Positions 7,776 to 62,484 of a stretch of 64,000 nucleotides of DNA are shown here, in pieces. The translations under genes and the position numbers were made by a program. The DNA comes from Bacteroidia bacterium (GTDB lineage Bacteria; Bacteroidota; Bacteroidia; Cytophagales; Flammeovirgaceae), in NCBI GenBank assembly GCA_030425505.1, contig JAUIAB010000009.1:1-64000 (forward strand). The letters run 5' to 3'. The notes beneath the pieces are model-generated. The model was given only the letters and a program-made list of their open reading frames with translations. It ran no database searches and had not been told where the DNA came from. Position 1 is the first letter of the stretch. The number at the start of each line of letters is the position of its first letter.

Positions 7776-10502
7776 CTATCTCCTAGATTGTTTTATCATT
7801 TCTTTCAAGTAGTTGTTAAACTTCTCTTGCTTCATCAAATCTTCCAGATTGATATGGAATCGATACTTCCAGTAATGATTGGGATTGCTTGGCTCATTAA
7901 TTCTTTCTTCTTGCGTTTCTACTCTTCGCAGCTCCCCGTCCATAGCAAGCAGATCTTGTATAGGAAAAATAGCCCACATACTATTTCCATACAAATGTTG
8001 CTTCACTACTTGTTCGCAAATCCATGGTTCGCAGAAATAAGGCGCGCCACCATCAAGTCCTAAAATATGATTGTAGTACCTCTGCGTTCTTTCAATGTCT
8101 TCTTCCCACCAACCTCTTACAGTAGACATATCATGGCAGGATGGGCTGGATACAGATAAATAAGGAGCATCATTAGGATGACTAAACTCTCTCTCACCTT
8201 TAGGCATCCGCTGAATCTCTAAGCTAAGAAGACCTAGCTCCATCATTACGCCTGGCACACAAGCTGGCACCATTCCTAAGTCTTCCCCACAAACAAGCAT
8301 ATTGGTTGCTTCTTTTAGTGCTGGTAGCTTGATCATTGCTTGATCTTTCCAAAAATTTTCCTGCCTATTATAAAAATAGTCTGTATAAAGTTCGTTGATT
8401 TTGCTTTTGGTATACTCATCAAGTTCTTGGTATGATTTGGTAAAGTGGAGTGAATTTCTAGGATGAAAGGCTACTCCTCCAGATCCTTCCTCTTCAAAAA
8501 AGATGACTTCAGATAATAAACCAAAAAGCCCATCACGCATTCTTTGATTTATTACTTTTTCATCCATAGACATACCATCTCTTTCTGCGAACAAAACACT
8601 AACTTTTCGCTGTGTATTTATTTCTTCTTTAAGGTGGTAGCAGCCAGGATGGTATTCTTCCAGAAATTGTCTTTTCACCTGTTCTTTAAGATCACCAAAA
8701 AAATCATAAAGCATATGCTCTCTTATATAAGGCTTGCAAAACCTATCGTAATCCAACCAAACTCCTTTTTGCTCAATTTCATCTTTGTAGATAGGTATTG
8801 CAGGGTTAAACCTTCCCATAATTCCTTCTACCTGACTATAAGGCATTTGCCAAATTCTAAAAAAACCAAGAATATGATCAATACGGTAGGCATCGAAGTA
8901 CTGAGCCATTTGTTTAAGCCTATTTTGCCACCATTGGTATCCATCTTTTGCCATTTCTTCCCAATTATAGGTAGGGAATCCCCAGTTTTGTCCTTTTATT
9001 GCATAGTCATCAGGTGGAGCTCCTGCTTGAGCATTCATATTAAATAATTTTGGATAAACCCAGGCATCGACGCTATGCCTGTAAATACCAATAGGTATAT
9101 CTCCTTTGAGTACTACCCCCTTAGATCTAGCATAGTTAGTAGCACTTTTTAATTGTTTGTAGAGATGGTACTGGACAAAGTAGTGAATAGCTACCTCGTC
9201 AAAATGTGGTTGATTTTCTTTGGACAGAGTGTTAATAACAGAAGGAGTTATTTTTTCATATTTATCCCATTTTGAAAAGTTAACCGTACCAAATAGATCT
9301 CTTAGGTAACAGAAGACGGCATAAGGCTTTAGCCAACTTTCATTTTCTTTAAAGAATTGTATAAACTCTTTTTCCTTAAGAAAACCCACTTTTTTCTCTG
9401 TATATATTTCTCGGATGTACTTCCACTTCAAATGGAGCACTTCTGCATAACTGACAGATTTTTTATTATTCAGATCAACCCTTTGTTGCTCTAAGGCTTC
9501 TCTGATAATAGGGTTAGATACTGTACCAATCAAAGATGGGTTTATATATATTGGGTGCAGTGCAAAAACAGAAATTGCAGCATAAGGATAGGAGTCTTTC
9601 CATGTTTTAGTGGCTGTAGTATCATTGATTGGCAAAATTTGTATAAGCTTAAGACCCACACTTTCTGCCCAATCAGCCATCAGTTCCAGATCAGAAAACT
9701 GCCCTATACCATAACCCTGTTCACTTCGCAATGAAAATACAGGAATTGCGACTCCAGCTCCTTTCCACCAGTCTTTTTCACTTCTAAAGTGCTGGTCATT
9801 TTTAACTAGAAGCGCGCTTTTAGAAAGCTCACTTTTATGAATGTTTCTATTTGCTCCAACTTCCCAAGAGATAATCTTCTTTTTTTTGGGGTCATAAACA
9901 CCATATTTATACTCTATTGTTGAAGCGAGTGATTTTTTAATTTCTATTTCTTGTTCCCAATCTGTTTCTCTAAAATTTTCAAGAATAACAGCTTTGTTTT
10001 CATCCCAATTTCCCAGTTCTGGAATATTACCACTTAAGCACATTTTCATCCCTTGTTCTAAAAAGGGGACATCTATCTTAAACCGTATTGCAGTGTTATT
10101 TGATTCTTTGGAAATTGATGGTGTTGATTTTCTCTTTTTGTTGCTTAAAGGAAGTAGCGTATTTTTAAATGCATCCGTTCTAAATGCATTTTCAATATCT
10201 CTTCTTGACCTCCACTGATCGTACACATGTGTTGTATTAGCAAAAGAGCCTTTAAGGTAAAGCTCTCTCAAATGACCTGCTTCATCTTCTACTTCATGCG
10301 TGCTTTCATTAAGTAATGCATATTTGTATAATACTTTATCTGTCTTTTCTGGTAAACTAATTTCTAATGTCCAATGCCCATCTCCTTCGTACTTTAATTT
10401 TTTTCCTTTTTTAGGTCTGTTATTACCTGATAAGCCTTCTTCAAGTAAAAGTACCTGTTGACCCCAATGTGTATGAAAATGTATAGAAAACCTTACTTTC
10501 AT
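7776..10502 (-). CDS. malQ: 4-alpha-glucanotransferase with two N-terminal starch-binding domains
   Basis: A 908-residue GH77 disproportionating enzyme of the large DPE2-like type, which transfers glucan segments between maltose, maltodextrin and branched glucans. Two CBM20-like modules come first (about 1-110, and 140-245 with CLSGNIPELGNWDENKAVIL). GH77 follows, with DSYPYAAISVFALHPIYI, the nucleophile region YRIDHILGFFRIW near 540, the acid/base region CGEDLGMVP near 735 and SPSCHDMSTVRGWWEED near 785-800. The catalytic segments are intact, and the length fits DPE2 relatives rather than the roughly 500-residue bacterial form. The start codon is immediately preceded by one copy of the dispersed leader repeat. 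The protein lacks a signal peptide and is cytoplasmic. Confidence 0.94.
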   Translation of the reverse strand: MKVRFSIHFHTHWGQQVLLLEEGLSGNNRPKKGKKLKYEGDGHWTLEISLPEKTDKVLYKYALLNESTHEVEDEAGHLRELYLKGSFANTTHVYDQWRSRRDIENAFRTDAFKNTLLPLSNKKRKSTPSISKESNNTAIRFKIDVPFLEQGMKMCLSGNIPELGNWDENKAVILENFRETDWEQEIEIKKSLASTIEYKYGVYDPKKKKIISWEVGANRNIHKSELSKSALLVKNDQHFRSEKDWWKGAGVAIPVFSLRSEQGYGIGQFSDLELMADWAESVGLKLIQILPINDTTATKTWKDSYPYAAISVFALHPIYINPSLIGTVSNPIIREALEQQRVDLNNKKSVSYAEVLHLKWKYIREIYTEKKVGFLKEKEFIQFFKENESWLKPYAVFCYLRDLFGTVNFSKWDKYEKITPSVINTLSKENQPHFDEVAIHYFVQYHLYKQLKSATNYARSKGVVLKGDIPIGIYRHSVDAWVYPKLFNMNAQAGAPPDDYAIKGQNWGFPTYNWEEMAKDGYQWWQNRLKQMAQYFDAYRIDHILGFFRIWQMPYSQVEGIMGRFNPAIPIYKDEIEQKGVWLDYDRFCKPYIREHMLYDFFGDLKEQVKRQFLEEYHPGCYHLKEEINTQRKVSVLFAERDGMSMDEKVINQRMRDGLFGLLSEVIFFEEEGSGGVAFHPRNSLHFTKSYQELDEYTKSKINELYTDYFYNRQENFWKDQAMIKLPALKEATNMLVCGEDLGMVPACVPGVMMELGLLSLEIQRMPKGEREFSHPNDAPYLSVSSPSCHDMSTVRGWWEEDIERTQRYYNHILGLDGGAPYFCEPWICEQVVKQHLYGNSMWAIFPIQDLLAMDGELRRVETQEERINEPSNPNHYWKYRFHINLEDLMKQEKFNNYLKEMIKQSRR

Positions 10503-10599
10503 CTATTTAAAATTTGTTACCTGCCTAGTTTGTTTGGTACACATCTTAATCATTGCTTCGTCTGTGCCTCAATTTTAAATCAGACATGGTCTGTTTCAT
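10503..10599 (-). repeat. Dispersed leader repeat, copy A (upstream of malQ)
   Basis: On the minus strand this begins ATGAAACAGACCATGTCTG and ends ACAAATTTTAAATAG directly before the malQ ATG. It contains the tiny ORF MSDLKLRHRRSND (10587 down to a TAA at 10546-10548). A second, overlapping ORF, MIKMCTKQTRQVTNFK, ends with a TAG that abuts the malQ start (TAGATG). The CAGAC/GTCTG hairpin is intact; the second hairpin is weakened by mismatches. Other copies are near 29599, 40838, 45631, 58534 and 62393. Confidence 0.9.
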
Positions 10600-27540: not shown

Positions 27541-29595
27541 TTAATATGCTTTTCTCAGGTAATTACCATTCTTATCTACTACTATCCATTCGTTTTCATA
27601 TTGAACAGTAATTTCCCCGTGTTTGAAATAGTCTCTTCTGAAAGAAGTGTACTTTGGAGGAACAATTATTTTCCCAGTACTGTCTAAAAACCCTATTTTT
27701 CCATATTGAGCAAATAAAGCCCTGTCTTCCTTCAACTCTTTAATTTCTTCATAAATGATAGGGAGAATCTCGTTTCCTTGTGTATCAATTATACCGTATT
27801 TTCTAAACTTACTAGCCATAAAATTTCCTTTCCCAAACCGGTTCATGACAGTGTATTGACCAGGGATTATTTCCTTTCCAGTTATATCTAAAGCTCCAAA
27901 CTTGCCTGCTACTCTAAACCTAAAAACACCTGCTTCTTCTACATACTCTATTTCATCGTATTTAAAAGGAGTAACTTTTTTACCATTGGTATCAAAAAGT
28001 GCAAACTTAATAGCACTTTGTACAGTAAACCCTCTTAATCTTCCTTTGCTAAACATGATGGAGAATCCATCGTAGTACATTGCCGAAATTTCTTTCCCAT
28101 TCGTATTTACAAAGCCATATTTACCATCTCTTTTGGCTACAGAAATACCGTTGACGGGTTTAGTTATTTCCTGATACTTCATAGGTATGACTTCTGATCC
28201 AAATCGATCAATTATCCCATAAAATTCCCCTAGTTTAACTTTTGAAAAACCGTTTTCAAAATCAGTAGCATCATCATATCTAGGAGGAATTGCAATGTGT
28301 CCTCTATCGTCAATAAACCCATTCTTTTTATTAACCGTAATCTTTGCCATTCCCTCTTCAAAATCAGAAATATAGCTATACTGAAATGGAAGTACGGTTT
28401 GCCCTTGCGGGTTAATGATTCCATACATCCCATTTTTCTTAGCTACAGCTAGGTTAGGTGCTGATTTTCTATCAAATGAATAGAGCCTCTCAAACTCTAA
28501 AGGAATAACTACATTTCCTTGCATATCAATAGCCCCATATTTTCCATATTTTTCAACAATGGCGATATGATGATGATTAAAGTTTCTAGCAGTTCCATAT
28601 TGAAAAGGGATAACTACGTTTCCTGATTTATTGATATATCCATAAAGGTTGTTTTGCTTAACATGAGCTAAGCCTTCACTAAAAAACATGGCATCATCAT
28701 ATATTGGTGGAATGACAATCACCCCATCTTCGTTCATGAAGCCAAATTTCATATTATAGTTTTCGAGGGCTGTGATTAATGACATGCCTTCTTTTGGCTC
28801 ATCAATATCATCATATTTAGGTGTAATTACTACTTTACCACTATGATCAATAACCCCCCAGTTTTCTCCTTCTTTTACACCAATAAGTTTCTCACCAATA
28901 AGTTTATATTTATCGTATCTGTAAGGGATTACCAAGTTCCCTTGTGTATTAGCAAAACCAATCTTTCCAGCATTATCTTCAACAGCATGTAGCTTTTGAT
29001 ATGTATTTGTAGCACGTGTATTATTTGTTACAGTGCTGCTATTTACCTGGTCCGAACCGGGCGATTGGATTTTTTCCATCTTCTCATTGAAAACTAAAGA
29101 CATTGGAATTCCAGATTGCGTTTCGTATGTCAAGTACACTTTTCTGTCTTTAACATCGCAATCCACATTTTTTGCTCCAGTAATCTCGTATTCTCCCTGA
29201 AAAATCATTCTTCTATTGAATGTGCCTATATAATCTCTATCCCACTTATTGGTATACCAAACTGCAGTTAGTCCATCGTCAACCAAATAGCCTTTTACTT
29301 TCAGGTCTTTAAAAATATATTCCCCAATAAAATGCAGGTTTTTATCCCAGGTTCCTATGTAGTGAATACCGCTTTCATCTTTGTATCGTATAGCGGTTTC
29401 CTCTCCTTCTCCTCTATGAGAAACATATTTGAGTTTTTCTGGAAGCTTATACTGACCAGTAGCGACACCATTAACTCTTGTCTCTAAAATATTTTTTTCT
29501 TTAAAAAAGAAATACTTTACAACTCCATTTTGTGCGCTAACTGTTTGAAATACAGTTACAATAACTATCAAAAATGTACTAATTAAATTTTTCAT
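27541..29595 (-). CDS. Secreted WG-repeat protein
   Basis: A 684-residue protein with a signal peptide (LISTFLIVIVTVFQTVSAQ). After about 200 residues of beta-rich sequence come some 13 WG repeats of 35-45 residues and a partial 14th. Each has the pattern [WYF]G[FIV]I[DN]..G..VIP..Y, for example WGVIDHSGKVVITPKYDD and YGIIDTQGNEILPIIYEE. Such repeats form a beta-propeller or solenoid-like surface. The function of secreted WG proteins is not established. The ATG at 29595 is preceded within a few bases by copy B of the leader repeat. Confidence 0.9.
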   Translation of the reverse strand: MKNLISTFLIVIVTVFQTVSAQNGVVKYFFFKEKNILETRVNGVATGQYKLPEKLKYVSHRGEGEETAIRYKDESGIHYIGTWDKNLHFIGEYIFKDLKVKGYLVDDGLTAVWYTNKWDRDYIGTFNRRMIFQGEYEITGAKNVDCDVKDRKVYLTYETQSGIPMSLVFNEKMEKIQSPGSDQVNSSTVTNNTRATNTYQKLHAVEDNAGKIGFANTQGNLVIPYRYDKYKLIGEKLIGVKEGENWGVIDHSGKVVITPKYDDIDEPKEGMSLITALENYNMKFGFMNEDGVIVIPPIYDDAMFFSEGLAHVKQNNLYGYINKSGNVVIPFQYGTARNFNHHHIAIVEKYGKYGAIDMQGNVVIPLEFERLYSFDRKSAPNLAVAKKNGMYGIINPQGQTVLPFQYSYISDFEEGMAKITVNKKNGFIDDRGHIAIPPRYDDATDFENGFSKVKLGEFYGIIDRFGSEVIPMKYQEITKPVNGISVAKRDGKYGFVNTNGKEISAMYYDGFSIMFSKGRLRGFTVQSAIKFALFDTNGKKVTPFKYDEIEYVEEAGVFRFRVAGKFGALDITGKEIIPGQYTVMNRFGKGNFMASKFRKYGIIDTQGNEILPIIYEEIKELKEDRALFAQYGKIGFLDSTGKIIVPPKYTSFRRDYFKHGEITVQYENEWIVVDKNGNYLRKAY

Positions 29596-29598
29596 GTG

Positions 29599-29692
29599 TT
29601 TAAAATTTGTGACCTGTTTAGTTTGTTAGGCACACATTTTAAGCATTGCTTCTTGTGTTCCTCAATTTTAAACCAGACATGGTCTGTTTCAT
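29599..29692 (-). repeat. Dispersed leader repeat, copy B (upstream of the WG-repeat gene)
   Basis: Read on the minus strand, the copy keeps the tiny ORF MSGLKLRNTRSNA (29680 to a TAA at 29639-29641) and the CAGACCATGTCTG hairpin. The second overlapping frame starts MLKMCA and stops after six codons; without that stop it would continue QTKQVTNFKH into the gene. The copy ends ACAAATTTTAAACAC immediately before the ATG of the WG-repeat gene. Confidence 0.9.
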
Positions 29693-40837: not shown

Positions 40838-40938
40838 ATGAAACAGCCCTTGTCTGATTTAAAATTGAGCTACACAGAGGGATGATTAAGCTGTGTGCCA
40901 AACAAAAAGGCAGGTTACAAATTTTAAATTTTAAAACA
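40838..40938 (+). repeat. Dispersed leader repeat, copy C (upstream of M28 peptidase)
   Basis: This copy begins ATGAAACAGCCCTTGTCTG and ends just before the peptidase ATG at 40939. The tiny ORF would start with TTG (40850) and read MSDLKLSYTEG before a TGA at 40883-40885, because two bases are missing relative to other copies. Its stop overlaps an ATG at 40882 (ATGA) that opens the second frame, MIKLCAKQKGR onward, which stays open into the peptidase gene. Confidence 0.88.
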
Positions 40939-42507
40939 ATGAAAAAGTGTCAAGTATGTTTTCTTTTAATCTTCTTTTGGTGGAATGCATTTGGTCAAGC
41001 TACTAATGAAGATGTTTCTATAAAGTATCAAAAAGAGATAACTGAAAAAGATCTATTACAACATTTAGGCATCCTTGCCTCTGATGAGTTTGAGGGAAGA
41101 GAAACAGGAGAAAAGGGGCAAAAGAAAGCTGCCGAATATATTTCTAATCATTTTAAAGCAATAGGTTTGAAAGGGATAACTAAAAATCAAGAAAACCCTT
41201 ACTATCAAACTTTCCAATTGCAGAAATCTTATTACAGCGCATACTCTTTGGTAAATAAAAAAGATACAGCTCTTCTTTTTAGAGACTTTGTTCCTTTCGG
41301 AAGCTTTGAGTCTGCAAAGAAAGAGTTAGATGTTGTTTTTGCTGGTTATGGAATAGATACTAAAACGTACTCTGACTATAACGGCTTAGAGGTAAAAGAT
41401 AAAGCAGTAGTTATATTCTCTGGCGAGCCAGTAGATAAGGAAGGTACGTTTTTGCTTTCAGGAACAGATGAGCCTTCAACATATTCTTCTACTGGAGAGA
41501 AGCTAAAAGTGGCAGCGGAAAATGGAGCTTCTTTTGTCATTATCGTTTATGAAAGTAAGAGTGAGTTTGATAAAAAGATCGCACTGTATGCTAATTATCT
41601 TAAGAAACCAAAATATGAATTTGAAACAGGAAACCAGTCTGGCGGCTTTGGGTTGATTTACACGTACCCTGAAGTTGCAGCTAAACTTTTAGGTACAAAG
41701 AAGAAAAAATTACAAAAAGCTATTGCTAAAATAAATGTAGGAAAAACCTCCTCATCGTTTGGCAGTAAAGTAGAGCTAAATGCTGAGTTTAAAAAAGAAA
41801 AAATAAATACAGAAAATGTGATGGGACTCCTAGAAGGTGTTTCTTCTGATGAAACATTAGTAGTTACTTCCCATTATGATCATGTAGGCATAATAGATGG
41901 TAAAATACATAATGGTGCTGATGATGATGGTTCTGGAACTACAGGGCTTTTGGAGATAGCAGAATCCTTTGCTTTAGCAGCTAAAGATGGGTATAAGCCT
42001 AAGCGAAACATACTGTTTATGACTTTTACTGGAGAAGAAAAAGGGCTTTTAGGGTCAAAGTATTATACGGACAACCCAATTATTCCACTACAAAATACTA
42101 TAGCAGATCTTAATATCGATATGATAGGAAGGGTAGATGATGAGCATAAAGAGGATCAAAACTATGTCTATTTGATAGGGTCAGATAAACTATCTTCTGA
42201 ACTACATGAGATGAGTGAAAAGACCTCCAAAGAATATTTTCCTGAAATAAAACTAGATTATAAGTATAACGATGAAAATGACCCAAATAGATTTTATTAT
42301 CGATCCGATCATTACAACTTTGCTAAGAATAATATACCTGTAATTTTTTATTTCAATGGAACTCATAAAGATTACCATCAGCCTACTGATACGGTTGAAA
42401 AAATCAATTTTGAGATGCTAAAAAAAAGAAGTCAGCTAATCTTTTTAACTGCTTGGGAGCTTGCCAATAGAAAAGAAAAGCCTCTAGTTGACAAGTCGGT
42501 TGATTAG
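40939..42507 (+). CDS. Secreted M28-family zinc aminopeptidase with PA domain
   Basis: A 522-residue exported peptidase. The start at 40939 is chosen because it gives a clean signal peptide (KKCQVCFLLIFFWWNAFGQ); an in-frame ATG at 40882 would add 19 residues derived from the leader repeat. A protease-associated insert lies around 110-270. Zinc ligands are visible as His in TSHYDHVGI near 311, Asp in NGADDDGSGTTG near 328, Glu in TGEEKGLLGS near 365, Asp in NIDMIGRVD near 393 and His in the C-terminal THKDYHQPTDT. All key residues are present. Most relatives are bacterial leucyl- or glutaminyl-type aminopeptidases. Confidence 0.92.
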   Translation: MKKCQVCFLLIFFWWNAFGQATNEDVSIKYQKEITEKDLLQHLGILASDEFEGRETGEKGQKKAAEYISNHFKAIGLKGITKNQENPYYQTFQLQKSYYSAYSLVNKKDTALLFRDFVPFGSFESAKKELDVVFAGYGIDTKTYSDYNGLEVKDKAVVIFSGEPVDKEGTFLLSGTDEPSTYSSTGEKLKVAAENGASFVIIVYESKSEFDKKIALYANYLKKPKYEFETGNQSGGFGLIYTYPEVAAKLLGTKKKKLQKAIAKINVGKTSSSFGSKVELNAEFKKEKINTENVMGLLEGVSSDETLVVTSHYDHVGIIDGKIHNGADDDGSGTTGLLEIAESFALAAKDGYKPKRNILFMTFTGEEKGLLGSKYYTDNPIIPLQNTIADLNIDMIGRVDDEHKEDQNYVYLIGSDKLSSELHEMSEKTSKEYFPEIKLDYKYNDENDPNRFYYRSDHYNFAKNNIPVIFYFNGTHKDYHQPTDTVEKINFEMLKKRSQLIFLTAWELANRKEKPLVDKSVD

Positions 42508-44420: not shown

Positions 44421-45626
44421 TTAAGGCTCAACTTTTACTACAAGCATATCACCATTGCTATTTTTAGCTGATTTTGTAAAGCCAGCAATTACAATCTTGT
44501 GATCTTTAGTTTCACAAAGATCATACCCTCTCTGTTCGTTAGGTCCGCCTAGATTCCTTTTCCAAAACAGTTTACCCTTAGAGTCAAACTTGACTAATAG
44601 AATATCTAAGCCTTCCGTACTAATGTTTTGACCTTCTTCATTCGATTGCCAAACATCTACATACCCAGTAAGAAGGAAGTTTTGATCTTCTGTTTGAATG
44701 ATACTAAAAGCTTCATCGGTACTTAAGTCTCCATATACCCTGAACCATTCTTGGAACCCTTTATTATTGGTTTTTACCACCCATGCATCTAAACTTCCCT
44801 CTGCAAAGGTGTATGAATACCCACCGATAATGTATTCATCGTCTTTTGTTTTAACAATAGCATTTACCATTTCATTATCTCCTCCGCCAAGGGTGTTTTC
44901 CCAGAGCTTATTGCCCTTTACATCTACAGATAAAAGCCAAACATCCCACTTTCCTCTTCCAAAAGACTCTGTATTGGCAGCAATGGTATAGCCTTGCTCG
45001 GTTTTAACTAAGTCCTTACCCTCTTCGTTACTATTGCCTCCATAAACTTTTTCCCAAAGTTTATTCCCCTCACTATCAATTTCTAAAAGAATAACATTAC
45101 TAATTGGATTTTCTGACTCTAAATCTAGTACATTACCGACAATGGTATATCCCTTAGAGTGAGATTCAACAATTGCATTAGCTTTTTCTATCTTAAGCTC
45201 ATCCCCATAGGTTTTACTCCACTCCTCCACTCCTTTTTTATTTAGTTTTAAGATCCACATGTCATGCATCTCTGGAGATCTATCAAACGAATCAGAATTT
45301 CCCGCAATAATAAACCCCCCGTCTTTGGTTTGGATAATATCTTGAACCTCTTCCGTTCCATCACCTCCTATTTTTTGTTCCCAAATTAATGTTCCATCAC
45401 TAGAAAGCTTTAGAATATGTAAATCAGTATTTCCAACTTCCCCTGAAGAAGATCTACCAAGGACTAAAATAGAATTATCTTGTAGTGCTAGTACTTTTTT
45501 TGCCTCATCAAAACGACTACCGCCAAATACCTTTCTAAATAAGATTTTTTGATTGCCTTGCGCTTGTAATTCAGGACAACTAGAATAGAGTAGCAATGCA
45601 AGTATTATATAAATTGATTTTCTCAT
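44421..45626 (-). CDS. Exported seven-bladed beta-propeller protein (SBBP/PQQ-like repeats)
   Basis: A 401-residue exported protein. Its N-terminus can be read as a lipoprotein signal (ALLLYSSCPE, Cys17) or as an ordinary one cleaved after QAQ. Seven repeats of about 50 residues follow, each with the pattern [YF]GG...[DE]E...I..T.DGG[FY]..AG[YN], for example KIGGDGTEEVQDIIQTKDGG and TLGGGDNEMVNAIVKTKDDE. This predicts one complete seven-bladed propeller. No sorting tail is present. The start codon lies just after leader repeat copy D. Confidence 0.85.
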   Translation of the reverse strand: MRKSIYIILALLLYSSCPELQAQGNQKILFRKVFGGSRFDEAKKVLALQDNSILVLGRSSSGEVGNTDLHILKLSSDGTLIWEQKIGGDGTEEVQDIIQTKDGGFIIAGNSDSFDRSPEMHDMWILKLNKKGVEEWSKTYGDELKIEKANAIVESHSKGYTIVGNVLDLESENPISNVILLEIDSEGNKLWEKVYGGNSNEEGKDLVKTEQGYTIAANTESFGRGKWDVWLLSVDVKGNKLWENTLGGGDNEMVNAIVKTKDDEYIIGGYSYTFAEGSLDAWVVKTNNKGFQEWFRVYGDLSTDEAFSIIQTEDQNFLLTGYVDVWQSNEEGQNISTEGLDILLVKFDSKGKLFWKRNLGGPNEQRGYDLCETKDHKIVIAGFTKSAKNSNGDMLVVKVEP

Positions 45627-45630
45627 CCGT

Positions 45631-45721
45631 TTAAAAATTATGACATGCCTAATTTGTTTGGCACACAGTTAATCATTGCTTTGTGTGTGTCTCCATTTTA
45701 AATCAGACATGGTCTGTTCAT
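45631..45721 (-). repeat. Dispersed leader repeat, copy D (upstream of the propeller gene)
   Basis: The minus-strand reading keeps the tiny ORF MSDLKWRHTQSND (45710 to a TAA at 45669-45671) and the CAGACCATGTCTG hairpin. In this copy one base is missing after ATGATTAA, so the second frame is lost (MINCVPNKLGMS then stop). The 3' end TTTTTAAACGG abuts the propeller gene's ATG. Confidence 0.88.
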
Positions 45722-46145
45722 CCAAAAAGTATTTCTTCTACAACTGCTTACATAGAATCTATGAAATAATTCTATAAAAAATAAGGGTAAGTATCTGGTA
45801 ATCAGAGGAAAAATGCACCCTTTTATAAAATTAGCTAACAGATTCTACATAAATGATAAATAAATGTTTTAGTTTCTACAAGCCTAACAAAATTAAAACG
45901 GAAAAGATGTTTTAATATTTAATTTCAGAAAATAATATTTATGACCATTCTCATTAAACGCATTAAAGGTTATATATTAAATGTAAAAAGTAATATTTAT
46001 GTTTTTAAACATTACTTTGGTATTAACTTGAAGAAAAATACAGAGTCTCTATAAAAAATACAGTGGGATGAATAGTTCAGCTAAATAATAGTAAGTGTTT
46101 TGAAAGAGGCTGATTAATAAGAACTAAAGGTCTTTGAATAAGAAT
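45722..46145. other. Intergenic region with palindromic repeat and a hairpin
   Basis: This stretch lies between the divergent propeller and NSS transporter genes. It contains the second copy of the CATAGAATCTATG repeat (45751-45763, with its AAAGTATTTCTT flank from 45726). It also has a hairpin AAAGTAAT (45987-45994) / ATTACTTT (46011-46018), with inner ATGTTT/AAACAT pairing. No coding frame is convincing. It should include promoters for both neighbours. Confidence 0.5.
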
Positions 46146-56898: not shown

Positions 56899-58125
56899 AT
56901 GATTGATATTGCTCAGGTAAGACGAGATTTCAAGATTTTGAATGAAAAAATCAATGGGAAACCTCTAATATATTTTGATAATGCAGCAACATCTCAAAAA
57001 CCTCAGGTTGTTGTAGATGCTTTATTGAATTATTATCAACAAATCAACTCTAACGTACATAGAGGAGTTCATAGCCTTGCCGAAAAGGCAACTAATGCTT
57101 TTGAAAAAACCAGGGAAACTGTTAGAGGTTTTATCAATGCTAAGTTTACGGAAGAAATTATTTTTACGAAAGGGACTACCGAAGGGATAAATCTTGTTGC
57201 GCGGTCTTTATCTAAGATAAGTCTGGAAAAAGGCGATGAAGTAATCGTTTCAGCTATGGAGCATCATGCGAATATTGTTCCTTGGCAAATGGTTTGCGAT
57301 GAAGTGGGGGCAAAGCTTAAAGTTATTCCTATTACTCTAAAAGGTGAGTTGGATTTGGATTCTTTTGAAAGTTTGATAACTCCAAAAACAAAGATAGTAG
57401 CAGTAATACACGTATCAAATGTACTTGGTACAGTTAATGATATTAAGGGTATCACTAAAACTGCACATAAGCATAATGCTTTGGTGCTTGTAGATGGAGC
57501 TCAGGGTATTCCGCACCTTGATGTGGATGTACAAGATTTGGACTGTGATTTTTATGCGTTTTCCGCTCATAAGGTCTATGGGCCTACAGGTATTGGAGTT
57601 TTGTATGGGAAAAAAGAACTCTTAGAAAAAATGCCGCCTTTTCTGGGAGGTGGAGAGATGATTAGTGAAGTAACTTTTGAAAAGACGACCTACAACGAGC
57701 TTCCTTATAAGTTTGAGGCAGGTACACCAAATATCGGTGATGTGATTGCTTTTGATTCAGCAGTTAATTATTTAAAACAAAAGAAGGAAGAAAATATTGT
57801 AGCTCATGAAAACGAGCTACTTGAATATGCAACTAAGAAACTAAAGGAAATTGAGGGGATAAAAATTGTCGGTGAAAGTGATAATAAAATAAGTGTCATT
57901 TCTTTTATTGTGGAAGGAATTCATTCATTTGATTTGGGAATGATGTTGGATGCTCAAGGGATAGAAATACGTACTGGTCACCACTGTGCTCAACCACTGA
58001 TGAGAGCTTTAGGTATTGAAGGAACAGCAAGGGTGTCGTTTGCAATTTACAATACTAAGGAAGAAGTGGATATCTTCGTTGAGGAGCTAAAAAGAATTGT
58101 AGGAAAGTTTGCCAGAAAGAAATGA
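56899..58125 (+). CDS. sufS: Cysteine desulfurase SufS
   Basis: A 408-residue type II PLP enzyme that takes sulfur from cysteine for iron-sulfur cluster assembly. The PLP lysine is in FSAHKVYGPTGIGVLYG near 226. The substrate loop is HRGVHSLAEKATNAFEKTR near 54, and the catalytic cysteine is in EIRTGHHCAQPLMRALG near 362. All are intact. Its stop overlaps the sufE start by 4 bp (ATGA), so the pair is coupled. Confidence 0.96.
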   Translation: MIDIAQVRRDFKILNEKINGKPLIYFDNAATSQKPQVVVDALLNYYQQINSNVHRGVHSLAEKATNAFEKTRETVRGFINAKFTEEIIFTKGTTEGINLVARSLSKISLEKGDEVIVSAMEHHANIVPWQMVCDEVGAKLKVIPITLKGELDLDSFESLITPKTKIVAVIHVSNVLGTVNDIKGITKTAHKHNALVLVDGAQGIPHLDVDVQDLDCDFYAFSAHKVYGPTGIGVLYGKKELLEKMPPFLGGGEMISEVTFEKTTYNELPYKFEAGTPNIGDVIAFDSAVNYLKQKKEENIVAHENELLEYATKKLKEIEGIKIVGESDNKISVISFIVEGIHSFDLGMMLDAQGIEIRTGHHCAQPLMRALGIEGTARVSFAIYNTKEEVDIFVEELKRIVGKFARKK

Positions 58126-58589
58126 GTATTGATCAAAAACAAAAAGAAATAATAGAAGAGTTTCAGCTTTTTGAAGGAGATAAAGAGAGTACTATATTTC
58201 ATCTTATGGAGATAGGGGAGTCTTTATCACCATTGGAAGATGAATATAAAACTGATAAGTATATTATTAAAGGATGCCAGTCCAAGGTATGGTTGATTGC
58301 TGAGTGCAAAGATGGAAATGTGAATTTTAGAGCGGATAGCAATACTGCAATTACTAAAGGTATTATTAGCTTACTTATTCGAGTACTATCGGGTGAGAAA
58401 GCTAAGTCGATTGTAGATGCAGACCTGTACTTTATAAAAGAAATTGGTATGGGGAATATTATTGGAACTCAAAGATCTAATGGGCTGGTTGCTATGATAA
58501 AGCAAATGAAGCTTTTTGCTTTAGCTTTTCATAATAATGAACCAGCCATGTCTGATTTAAAATTGAGGCACACACGGAGCAATGATTAA
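58122..58589 (+). CDS. sufE: Cysteine desulfuration protein SufE, with a C-terminus supplied by the leader repeat
   Basis: A 155-residue SufE. The sulfur-accepting cysteine is in KYIIKGCQSKVWLIAE near 52. The core ends at about residue 137 (IKQMKLFALAFH), where most relatives stop. The last residues, MSDLKLRHTRSND after NNEPA, are exactly the tiny ORF of leader repeat copy E, read in frame and ending at its TAA. This looks like fusion through repeat insertion or read-through. The SufE fold should not be affected. It receives persulfide from SufS. Confidence 0.93.
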   Translation: MSIDQKQKEIIEEFQLFEGDKESTIFHLMEIGESLSPLEDEYKTDKYIIKGCQSKVWLIAECKDGNVNFRADSNTAITKGIISLLIRVLSGEKAKSIVDADLYFIKEIGMGNIIGTQRSNGLVAMIKQMKLFALAFHNNEPAMSDLKLRHTRSND

Positions 58590-58624
58590 GGTGTATGCCA
58601 AACAAAAAGGCAGGTCACAAATTT
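58534..58624 (+). repeat. Dispersed leader repeat, copy E (sufE 3' end, upstream of sufT)
   Basis: This copy overlaps the end of sufE. The tiny ORF MSDLKLRHTRSND (58548-58589) is in the SufE frame. The second frame reads MIKVYAKQKGRSQI then stops. The copy ends about 50 bases before the DUF59 gene start, farther than in the other five. The first hairpin is weakened (CAGCC for CAGAC), while GGCACACA/TGTATGCC is mostly kept. Confidence 0.88.
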
Positions 58625-58677
58625 AATATTGAATGCATCTTAAGGCTTAATTATTAAACTATTTTAAAGCTAAGTAA

Positions 58678-58992
58678 ATGGAGGAGCAAAGTTCTTTAAA
58701 GGAAAAAGTTAAAACAGCTATTCAAGAAGTATATGACCCTGAAATTCCAGTTAATATTTATGAGTTAGGGTTGATTTATGAGATAAGCATATATCCAGTC
58801 AATAATGTTTATGTTTTAATGACGCTAACTTCTCCTAACTGCCCTTCAGCAGAGGAAATACCATCAGAAGTTGAGGCAAAAATTAAAGAAATTAAGGAAG
58901 TAAATGAGGTAAAAATTGAGCTTACTTTTGACCCTCCATATTCTCAAGAAATGATGTCTGAAGCAGCTAAATTGGAATTGGGCTTTTTATAA
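58678..58992 (+). CDS. DUF59/MIP18 family iron-sulfur assembly protein (SufT-like)
   Basis: A 104-residue MIP18 domain protein: EVYDPEIPVNIYELGLIYE near 17-35 and TLTSPNCPSAEEIP near 55-68 (with the conserved Cys), and FDPPYSQEMMSE near 87. In Gram-positives and Bacteroidota this protein is part of the SUF cluster (SufT) and supports Fe-S maturation. It follows sufS-sufE in the same orientation, separated by leader repeat copy E. Confidence 0.9.
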   Translation: MEEQSSLKEKVKTAIQEVYDPEIPVNIYELGLIYEISIYPVNNVYVLMTLTSPNCPSAEEIPSEVEAKIKEIKEVNEVKIELTFDPPYSQEMMSEAAKLELGFL

Positions 58993-61679: not shown

Positions 61680-62390
61680 CTATCTTATTTCAAACCTTGC
61701 CTTAATATCATATTTGAGTTTTATTTTGTTGGTATTTTCTATTCCAGAGTCATTGGAAGAATCCATTATTACATTGCTAACTGCTGACGGAGCACTCCAT
61801 ATAGTACCATTGTTTTCCAACTCCACTATTGAAATTACATTTCCTAGCTCTTTGTCTATGCTTTCCAGAAGATATTCTGCTTTTTCTTTTGCTGCTTTTA
61901 AGGCATTGACCTTAACTTCTTTTCTAAATTTTGTAATCTTACTATGCTTAAGCTTGCCCATTCGCATGAAGTCAATACCTTTCATGTTTATTGTATTAAT
62001 TAGCTGATTGACTTTTTGCATATCATGCAAGCTAATTTCAAACTGCTTACTTATTAAAAAGTCTTTCCCTTGGTATCTCCAATAATTCCCTGCTTCATTT
62101 ATGATTAATTGATCTTTTTTAATTCCAAGACTTTCAAGCTTAGATAGTAGCTCTTTTTCGATCTTACTAATTGGAGTTTTTGTTTTATAATCTTTGAACT
62201 CCTTTTTTTTCTCAAACTCCTCTTTCCAATATTCTTTTATACCTATTAAAAACTGTATTTCGTCAGGTTCTATTTCCATTTCAGCACTACCGGAAACTTC
62301 TATGAACCTTCCTTGATTAACATTCCAACTCTGAGCGTCTATCATTTGATAAAAAAATAAAAATACTATTGAAAATATTACTTGCTTCAT
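61680..62390 (-). CDS. SIMPL (DUF541) domain exported protein
   Basis: A 236-residue exported protein. The start is set at ATG 62390 (MKQVIFSIVFLFFYQMIDAQ, a clean signal peptide). An in-frame GTG at 62441 would add 17 residues encoded by leader repeat copy F. The SIMPL core includes IEVSGSAEMEIEPDEIQFLI near 29 and the ...KAEYLLESIDKELGNVISI region near 170-190. Such periplasmic proteins are oligomeric and of unclear role. It sits in a minus-strand group with YiiX-like and DUF3127 genes. Confidence 0.87.
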   Translation of the reverse strand: MKQVIFSIVFLFFYQMIDAQSWNVNQGRFIEVSGSAEMEIEPDEIQFLIGIKEYWKEEFEKKKEFKDYKTKTPISKIEKELLSKLESLGIKKDQLIINEAGNYWRYQGKDFLISKQFEISLHDMQKVNQLINTINMKGIDFMRMGKLKHSKITKFRKEVKVNALKAAKEKAEYLLESIDKELGNVISIVELENNGTIWSAPSAVSNVIMDSSNDSGIENTNKIKLKYDIKARFEIR

Positions 62391-62392
62391 AG

Positions 62393-62484
62393 GTTTAAAA
62401 TTTGTGACCTTTCTAGTTTGCTTGGCACACAGCCTAATCACCCTTCTGTGTGTCTCAATTTTAAATCAGACATGTCTGTTTCAT
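62393..62484 (-). repeat. Dispersed leader repeat, copy F (upstream of SIMPL gene)
   Basis: The minus strand contains CAGACATGTCTG (a perfect 12-base palindrome), the tiny ORF MSDLKLRHTEG (62473 to a TGA at 62438-62440) and the overlapping GTG-initiated second frame MIRLCAKQTRKVTNFKP, which stays open into the SIMPL start (GTGA overlap). The ACACAG/CTGTGT stem is kept. It ends TTTAAACCT before the ATG. 62485-62535 holds nothing more. Confidence 0.9.

Follow-up and report, generated by a model that had tools for sequence, protein, structure and literature searches.

Six copies of a short repeat in the window

The window, by which we mean the whole stretch of 64,000 nucleotides analysed here, contains six copies of a short repeat, and all six were confirmed at the positions reported in a first-pass annotation. 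On the reverse strand, copy A (10496-10599) ends at the ATG of a 4-alpha-glucanotransferase gene (7776-10502), copy B (29589-29692) at that of a WG-repeat gene (27541-29595), copy D (45620-45722) at that of the gene 44421-45626, and copy F (62384-62484), a member of a short subfamily, at that of a SIMPL gene (PF04402; 61680-62390, reverse strand, probable real start 62390). Copies C (40838-40938) and E (58537-58635) lie on the forward strand and have decayed right ends. Copy C precedes a peptidase M28 gene (PF04389; 40939-42507, forward strand, probable real start 40939), and copy E lies between the SufE gene (58122-58589, forward strand) and a PF01883 gene (58678-58992). The upstream SufE protein ends in ...EPAMSDLKLRHTRSND, followed by the stop, and its last residues are supplied by the repeat.

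Copies C and F carry a tiny ORF, encoding MKQPLSDLKLSYTEG in copy C (40838-40885, forward strand), where its stop overlaps ATGA, and MSDLKLRHTEG in copy F (62438-62473, reverse strand), where its stop overlaps GTGA. A second frame was said to begin at this overlap and to fuse the repeat to the gene in these two copies. It is indeed open into the gene in both, from an ATG in copy C (40882-40938, forward strand, 19 codons in the reading frame of the M28 gene) and from a GTG in copy F (62391-62441, reverse strand, 17 codons in that of the SIMPL gene). Mechanical ORFs starting at 40882 and 62441 therefore have 541 and 253 amino acids, the inner ATGs at 40939 and 62390 giving 522 and 236. In the other copies, too, the frame is as described: it ends at a TAG touching the ATG in copy A, is stopped by TAA in copy B and is out of frame in copies D and E. 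The overlap of the tiny ORF with ATGA or GTGA holds in part, being present (4 nt) in C and F, whereas in A and B the tiny ORF runs to a TAA further on and overlaps by 8 nt.

The second frame evolves like non-coding DNA

The ORF listing extends both genes, and it might be possible that the second frame provides a true alternative start, extending the M28 and SIMPL proteins at the N-terminus. Such an extension would bury the signal peptide, however. The inner ATGs had been taken as the real starts, and we agree: judged by eye they begin typical signal peptides, and the family matches (M28 1.1e-39, SIMPL 4.2e-20) lie inside the shorter proteins. For a broader view we used 108 full-length copies from the source genome, i.e. 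the 114 copies found minus 6 low-scoring, truncated or variant ones. The start codon of the second frame is kept in 78 of them and the phase in 63 (30 and 45 copies having lost them), and start, phase and openness together are found in 28. In the 91 long-type copies, with nine highly variable sites excluded, the ratio of observed to expected substitutions (N/S) was 0.88 in the second frame and 0.9 and 1.0 in control frames, and 16 new stops were observed against 17.3 expected. The extension frame evolves like non-coding DNA, and its phase relation to the gene is not retained in sister families. Although the frame is open and in phase in C, F and the 28 copies, a translated extension is thus highly improbable.

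The 28 open frames do exceed the 15.3 obtained by column shuffling. We rejected this excess as evidence of coding and preferred the N/S test, because the copies differ in age and young ones retain all features jointly. In the consensus repeat the second frame is already open and matches the phase of the gene start; every undamaged copy thus inherits it, and C and F are not special. The two subfamilies of the source genome, with 97 and 94 nt between the two ATGs, would by chance leave one internal ATG in the phase of the gene; since element length modulo 3 differs between related families, there is no maintained frame relation to the gene. The gene fusion in C and F is an accidental, unselected by-product of the element.

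An element bounded by ATGA at gene starts

In the source genome (G000; 2.95 Mb, 41 contigs) a profile of 44 copies found at least 114 copies, a lower bound since 150 of 2017 candidates were scored; all matches were inspected with their flanks. The element is about 87-115 nt long, with ATGA(AA) at its left end and ...TAAACA-N at its right end, followed by a second ATGA that is the gene start. A gene that is hit thus has two start codons, separated by about 90-100 bases. Of the 108 full-length copies, 57 have ATGA at both ends, and most of the remainder have it at the right end. Nothing preceding ATGA is duplicated and the preceding base is variable; a longer target duplication was rejected because the base before the left ATGA does not depend on that before the right one (equal in 11 of 55 cases, 10.2 expected). 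C-to-T and G-to-A changes predominate among the substitutions in G000, the pattern of decaying repeats, and the left ATG decays as other sites do (G to A in 14 of 108). We also considered lone ends as traces of a larger parent element, but the search gave only truncated copies and a related second type. This second type (at C9:3580 and C21:346247 of G000) has the same left end and a different right half, and its copy at C21:346247 seems to break into the 3' end of a gene for an acidic protein. Two copies about 8.5 kb apart (C38:3083 and C38:11599) share their near flanks and downstream start and resemble a segmental duplication carrying the element. A search for the element on plasmids gave no match.

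In 76 of the 114 copies an ORF of 60 or more amino acids begins exactly at the right-end ATG. Several further copies, in which this ATG is lost, have a start no more than 15 nt away, and a minority of about 15-20 of the 114, counted by eye, are not close to any gene start. Among the decided elements of other families, 51 of 58 terminate exactly at such an ORF start; elements preceding another element or cut by the locus end were not counted. Among window sites that break no gene, start codons account for about 31% (ATGA) to 50% (ATGAAA), a rough null from one 64-kb window with a small sample and starts guessed from ORFs, and both counts exceed it. Selection against other sites may add to a target preference for start codons. 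Splicing or translational bypass of the repeat was rejected, because the copies precede genes instead of interrupting them, and nothing has to be removed for the gene to be intact.

Related elements in other Bacteroidota

Relatives with similar ends occur in Flexithrix, Splendidivirga, a Cytophagales MAG (MAG.91), a Salinivirgaceae MAG and a Cytophagales genus, g39. In the genome contig collection, a pattern that fixed the two ends and left the middle open matched 35 stretches: 30 in MAG.91, 3 in Splendidivirga corallicola and 1 each in the Salinivirgaceae MAG and Flexithrix dorotheae. The exact pattern matched G000 only among 395 genomes of the class, a model derived from G000 matched 2 of 117 genomes (G000 included), and a cross-genus model matched 20 of 390 genomes of the order, 14 of them belonging to g39 (family f19); these three kinds of search were unequal in sensitivity. 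MAG.91 contains at least 43 copies as well as a second type with a CCGG hairpin. Tandem and mixed arrays exist (in MAG.91 with two types), and every unit in them restarts at ATGA. The variable base before ATGA tends to match that of the neighbour in the MAG.91 arrays (19 of 29 junctions by hand count, loci L150-L183). Because the element of genome G004 has the sequence of that in Flexithrix dorotheae (L148, L179), we took G004 and its congener G009 as a Flexithrix group. Two genomes of this group share an element at trkA, a site without it in Splendidivirga and MAG.91. The Flexithrix-group copies are few, old and shared, so that a function at those sites is possible.

Orthologous gene starts with and without the element

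For eight gene starts we looked through 59 genomes of genus g39; the loci returned or fetched were inspected, and gene names were read by eye from the N-termini. The start of an aldolase gene is filled in 2 genomes (L236/L258, one place, and L264) and was scored empty in 19 others, although 2 of these 19 (L290, L291) hold a decayed element. When the site is empty the upstream sequence CCAAACCTAA... joins ATGAAATTTAAACC directly, and when it is filled it joins the left ATGAAA of the element. A dihydroorotase start is filled in 2 genomes (L254, L257) and empty in 6, with flanks alignable to the base (L254 and L295 up to the ATG). The gene at locus L253 is filled in one genome (G600) and empty in one (G683). 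MoaE is filled in G742 and empty in G809; here the filled leader has bases beyond the element, which we propose to explain by an earlier, partly deleted copy. The kdsB and exonuclease loci were found filled only, and the leaders of deoxyhypusine-synthase-like loci were too divergent for alignment. Orthologous gene starts in this genus hence occur both with and without the element, the boundary being precise to the base at ATGA. We consider it probable that we are dealing with a small mobile element of the non-autonomous kind, whose insertion site is ATGA and, most often, the start codon of a gene.

A covarying hairpin at the left end

Near the left end the sequences can form a hairpin CAGN/N'CTG (CAGN-C(C)ATG-N'CTG), in which 94.6% of cells are paired, compared with 79.5% after shuffling, with a covariation of 0.412 against 0.120. 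Its pair types are GC, UA, AU, UG and CG, and the compensatory changes follow the genomes: A/T in G000, G/C in MAG.91, C/G in Salinivirgaceae and T/A in Splendidivirga and Flexithrix. A second stem is found in genus g39, where the left end ATGAAATN pairs with N'ATTCCAT further right; position 8 of this stem is G-C in 12, A-T in 4 and C-G in 12 of 28 elements. The predicted folds of two consensus sequences exceeded shuffles in stability (z -2.65 and -3.56), while those of copies F and C did not (z -0.21 and -0.03). No hairpin was found near the right end; the last 20 nt or so before ATGA are unpaired in the predicted folds, inner stems lying further in. The elements at L264, L265, L164 and L220 contain additional internal hairpins, which look like secondary repeats inserted into their loops. 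A known riboswitch or leader was rejected as the prime explanation: Rfam gave no family at gathering score in the window, and RNAalifold of the G000 copies alone gave a consensus of 5 pairs only.

Discussion

In this study we describe a small repeat that precedes genes at their very start codon. An arrangement of this kind might also be a conserved regulatory leader, in which the tiny ORF and the ATGA overlap couple downstream translation by termination-reinitiation and which is selected at each gene. Termination-reinitiation at overlapping genes is real in bacteria, according to PMC6728339, and a tiny ORF with a start codon is present in a 17-codon form in 33 of the 108 copies and in a 7-codon form in 21. 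In 6 of the 28 genus g39 elements (among them L232, L245, L247, L248 and L279) its stop is the TGA contained in the ATGA with which the gene itself starts. In G000 the tiny-ORF frame has an N/S of 0.75 and 13 stops where 18.8 were expected (91 long-type copies), a mild signal and no proof of coding. However, orthologous genes in most relatives lack the element, the downstream genes are by eye functionally unrelated, and the mixed element lengths modulo 3 leave no conserved phase between the stop of the upstream ORF and the gene start. Moreover, the left ATG decays like its surroundings, and residue changes beside the hairpin track base-pairing rather than amino-acid similarity. The first-pass annotation had linked the ATGA overlaps to coupled reinitiation; as a selected device this does not hold up, the overlap being confined to the short subfamily, the second-frame start being lost in 30 of 108 copies, and related families having lengths of 0, 1 and 2 modulo 3. 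We therefore regard a selected leader as unlikely.

How could a gene tolerate a mobile element at this place? Bacteroidota have no Shine-Dalgarno sites. After insertion, the old leader would initiate the tiny ORF of the element, and the gene would be translated from the second ATG, for which the element would provide an A-rich initiation region. The right end, CAAATTTTAAACA-N followed by ATG, has A at -6, -12 and -13. Initiation in Flavobacterium johnsoniae is favoured by A at -3, -6, -12 and -13, as stated in PMC6847099. Positions -12 and -13 show zero substitutions in 108 copies (about 5 expected each), and at -3 a change of C to A is found in 9 copies (about 1.9 expected, n=108). Four of about a hundred sites are substitution-free, so chance has a share in this signal. 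As far as sequence goes, this is no more than a hint of a portable initiation region in the right end. If the element does bring its own translation start, the gene would survive the insertion.

As to the mover, transposition would use ATGA at both ends, a use comparable to that of the short fixed target next to a subterminal hairpin in IS200/IS605 elements. Our working guess, a tentative one, is that a Y1 (HUH) transposase moves the element in trans. Y1 genes are present in each of six element-bearing genomes examined and also in 5 of 14 control genomes. G000 has one solitary Y1 gene; it encodes an IS200-type protein with DHIH, WQ and YIKKQ motifs that resembles subclass 1.2 as defined in PMC6006769, and similar proteins are encoded at Splendidivirga and Salinivirgaceae loci. 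In the 20 Y1 loci fetched we found no right end and two loose left-end-like matches of the element. No copy of it flanks a Y1 gene, so mobilisation by an HUH enzyme is a working guess. The same mobile element may instead depend on another mover, a short-core recombinase, an IS110-like system or RNA-mediated copying, for which we see a real, if less than even, chance. The missing right end at the Y1 genes examined speaks for such a mover, as do the fetched Y1 loci of MAG.91 and G009, which gave no tblastn match to the G000 protein, and the variable base before ATGA, which no model considered here explains. The solitary IS200-like gene of G000 argues the other way, as does a combination of features that fits IS200/IS605 chemistry: a short fixed target by a subterminal hairpin, the lack of terminal inverted repeats, and exact gene restoration.

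IS200/IS605 elements and their non-autonomous derivatives are among the nearest in form: they insert 3' of a short fixed target (TTGAT in the case of ISDra2, as given in PMC2806898), have a left subterminal hairpin and no terminal inverted repeats, and can be restored exactly. Our element has the fixed short target at its left end and, by covariation, the left subterminal hairpin. It differs in its target ATGA, mostly at gene starts, in the lack of a transposase gene inside or beside it, in its length of about 87-115 nt and in that no right-end hairpin was found. We found no autonomous TnpA-encoding copy with shared ends, the end patterns in G000 being copies already found or truncated ones, and therefore do not file the element as a member of IS200/IS605. 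PMC6006769 describes a Y1 subclass 1.2 (Cyanobacteria, Bacteroidetes) generally without IS200-type end structures and a subclass 2.6 (Bacteroidetes) with atypical structures. REP sequences with their TnpA_REP (RAYT) proteins are likewise small hairpin repeats in many copies per genome and go with a solitary Y1 gene; however, our element has ATGA(AA) before the hairpin instead of a GT[AG]G tag, is longer, has asymmetric ends and does not lie beside the Y1 genes examined. Classical MITEs are also short, non-autonomous and high in copy number, with insertions flanked by short repeats; compared with such DDE elements ours lacks terminal inverted repeats, the consensus ends AACAGNC and TTTTAAACA-N not being inverted copies. 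The TAACTGA heptamer repeats of some Bacteroidetes are high-copy and stand directly upstream of start codons, but, as described in PMC4679880, they are tandem 7-mers with no predicted structure, no start-codon duplication and no sequence shared with our element.

We found no description of start-codon-targeted elements in the literature searched, whose coverage left subscription papers mostly outside. We would put it at not quite an even chance that the repeat represents an undescribed class of mobile elements that target the start codon, carry their own translation-start region, have spread over several Bacteroidota families and are possibly the substrate of target-less solitary Y1 transposases. 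The start codon is about the last place where one would expect a mobile element to be tolerated, yet this one precedes core genes, among them aldolase, dihydroorotase, CMP-KDO synthase-like and thiC-like genes (named by eye from the N-terminal sequence). In practical terms gene callers may add false N-terminal extensions, for which 28 of the 108 copies in the source genome could mislead them. The element is a candidate substrate for solitary HUH transposases. If it carries a portable initiation region, it would moreover be a natural test of start-codon choice in Bacteroidota.
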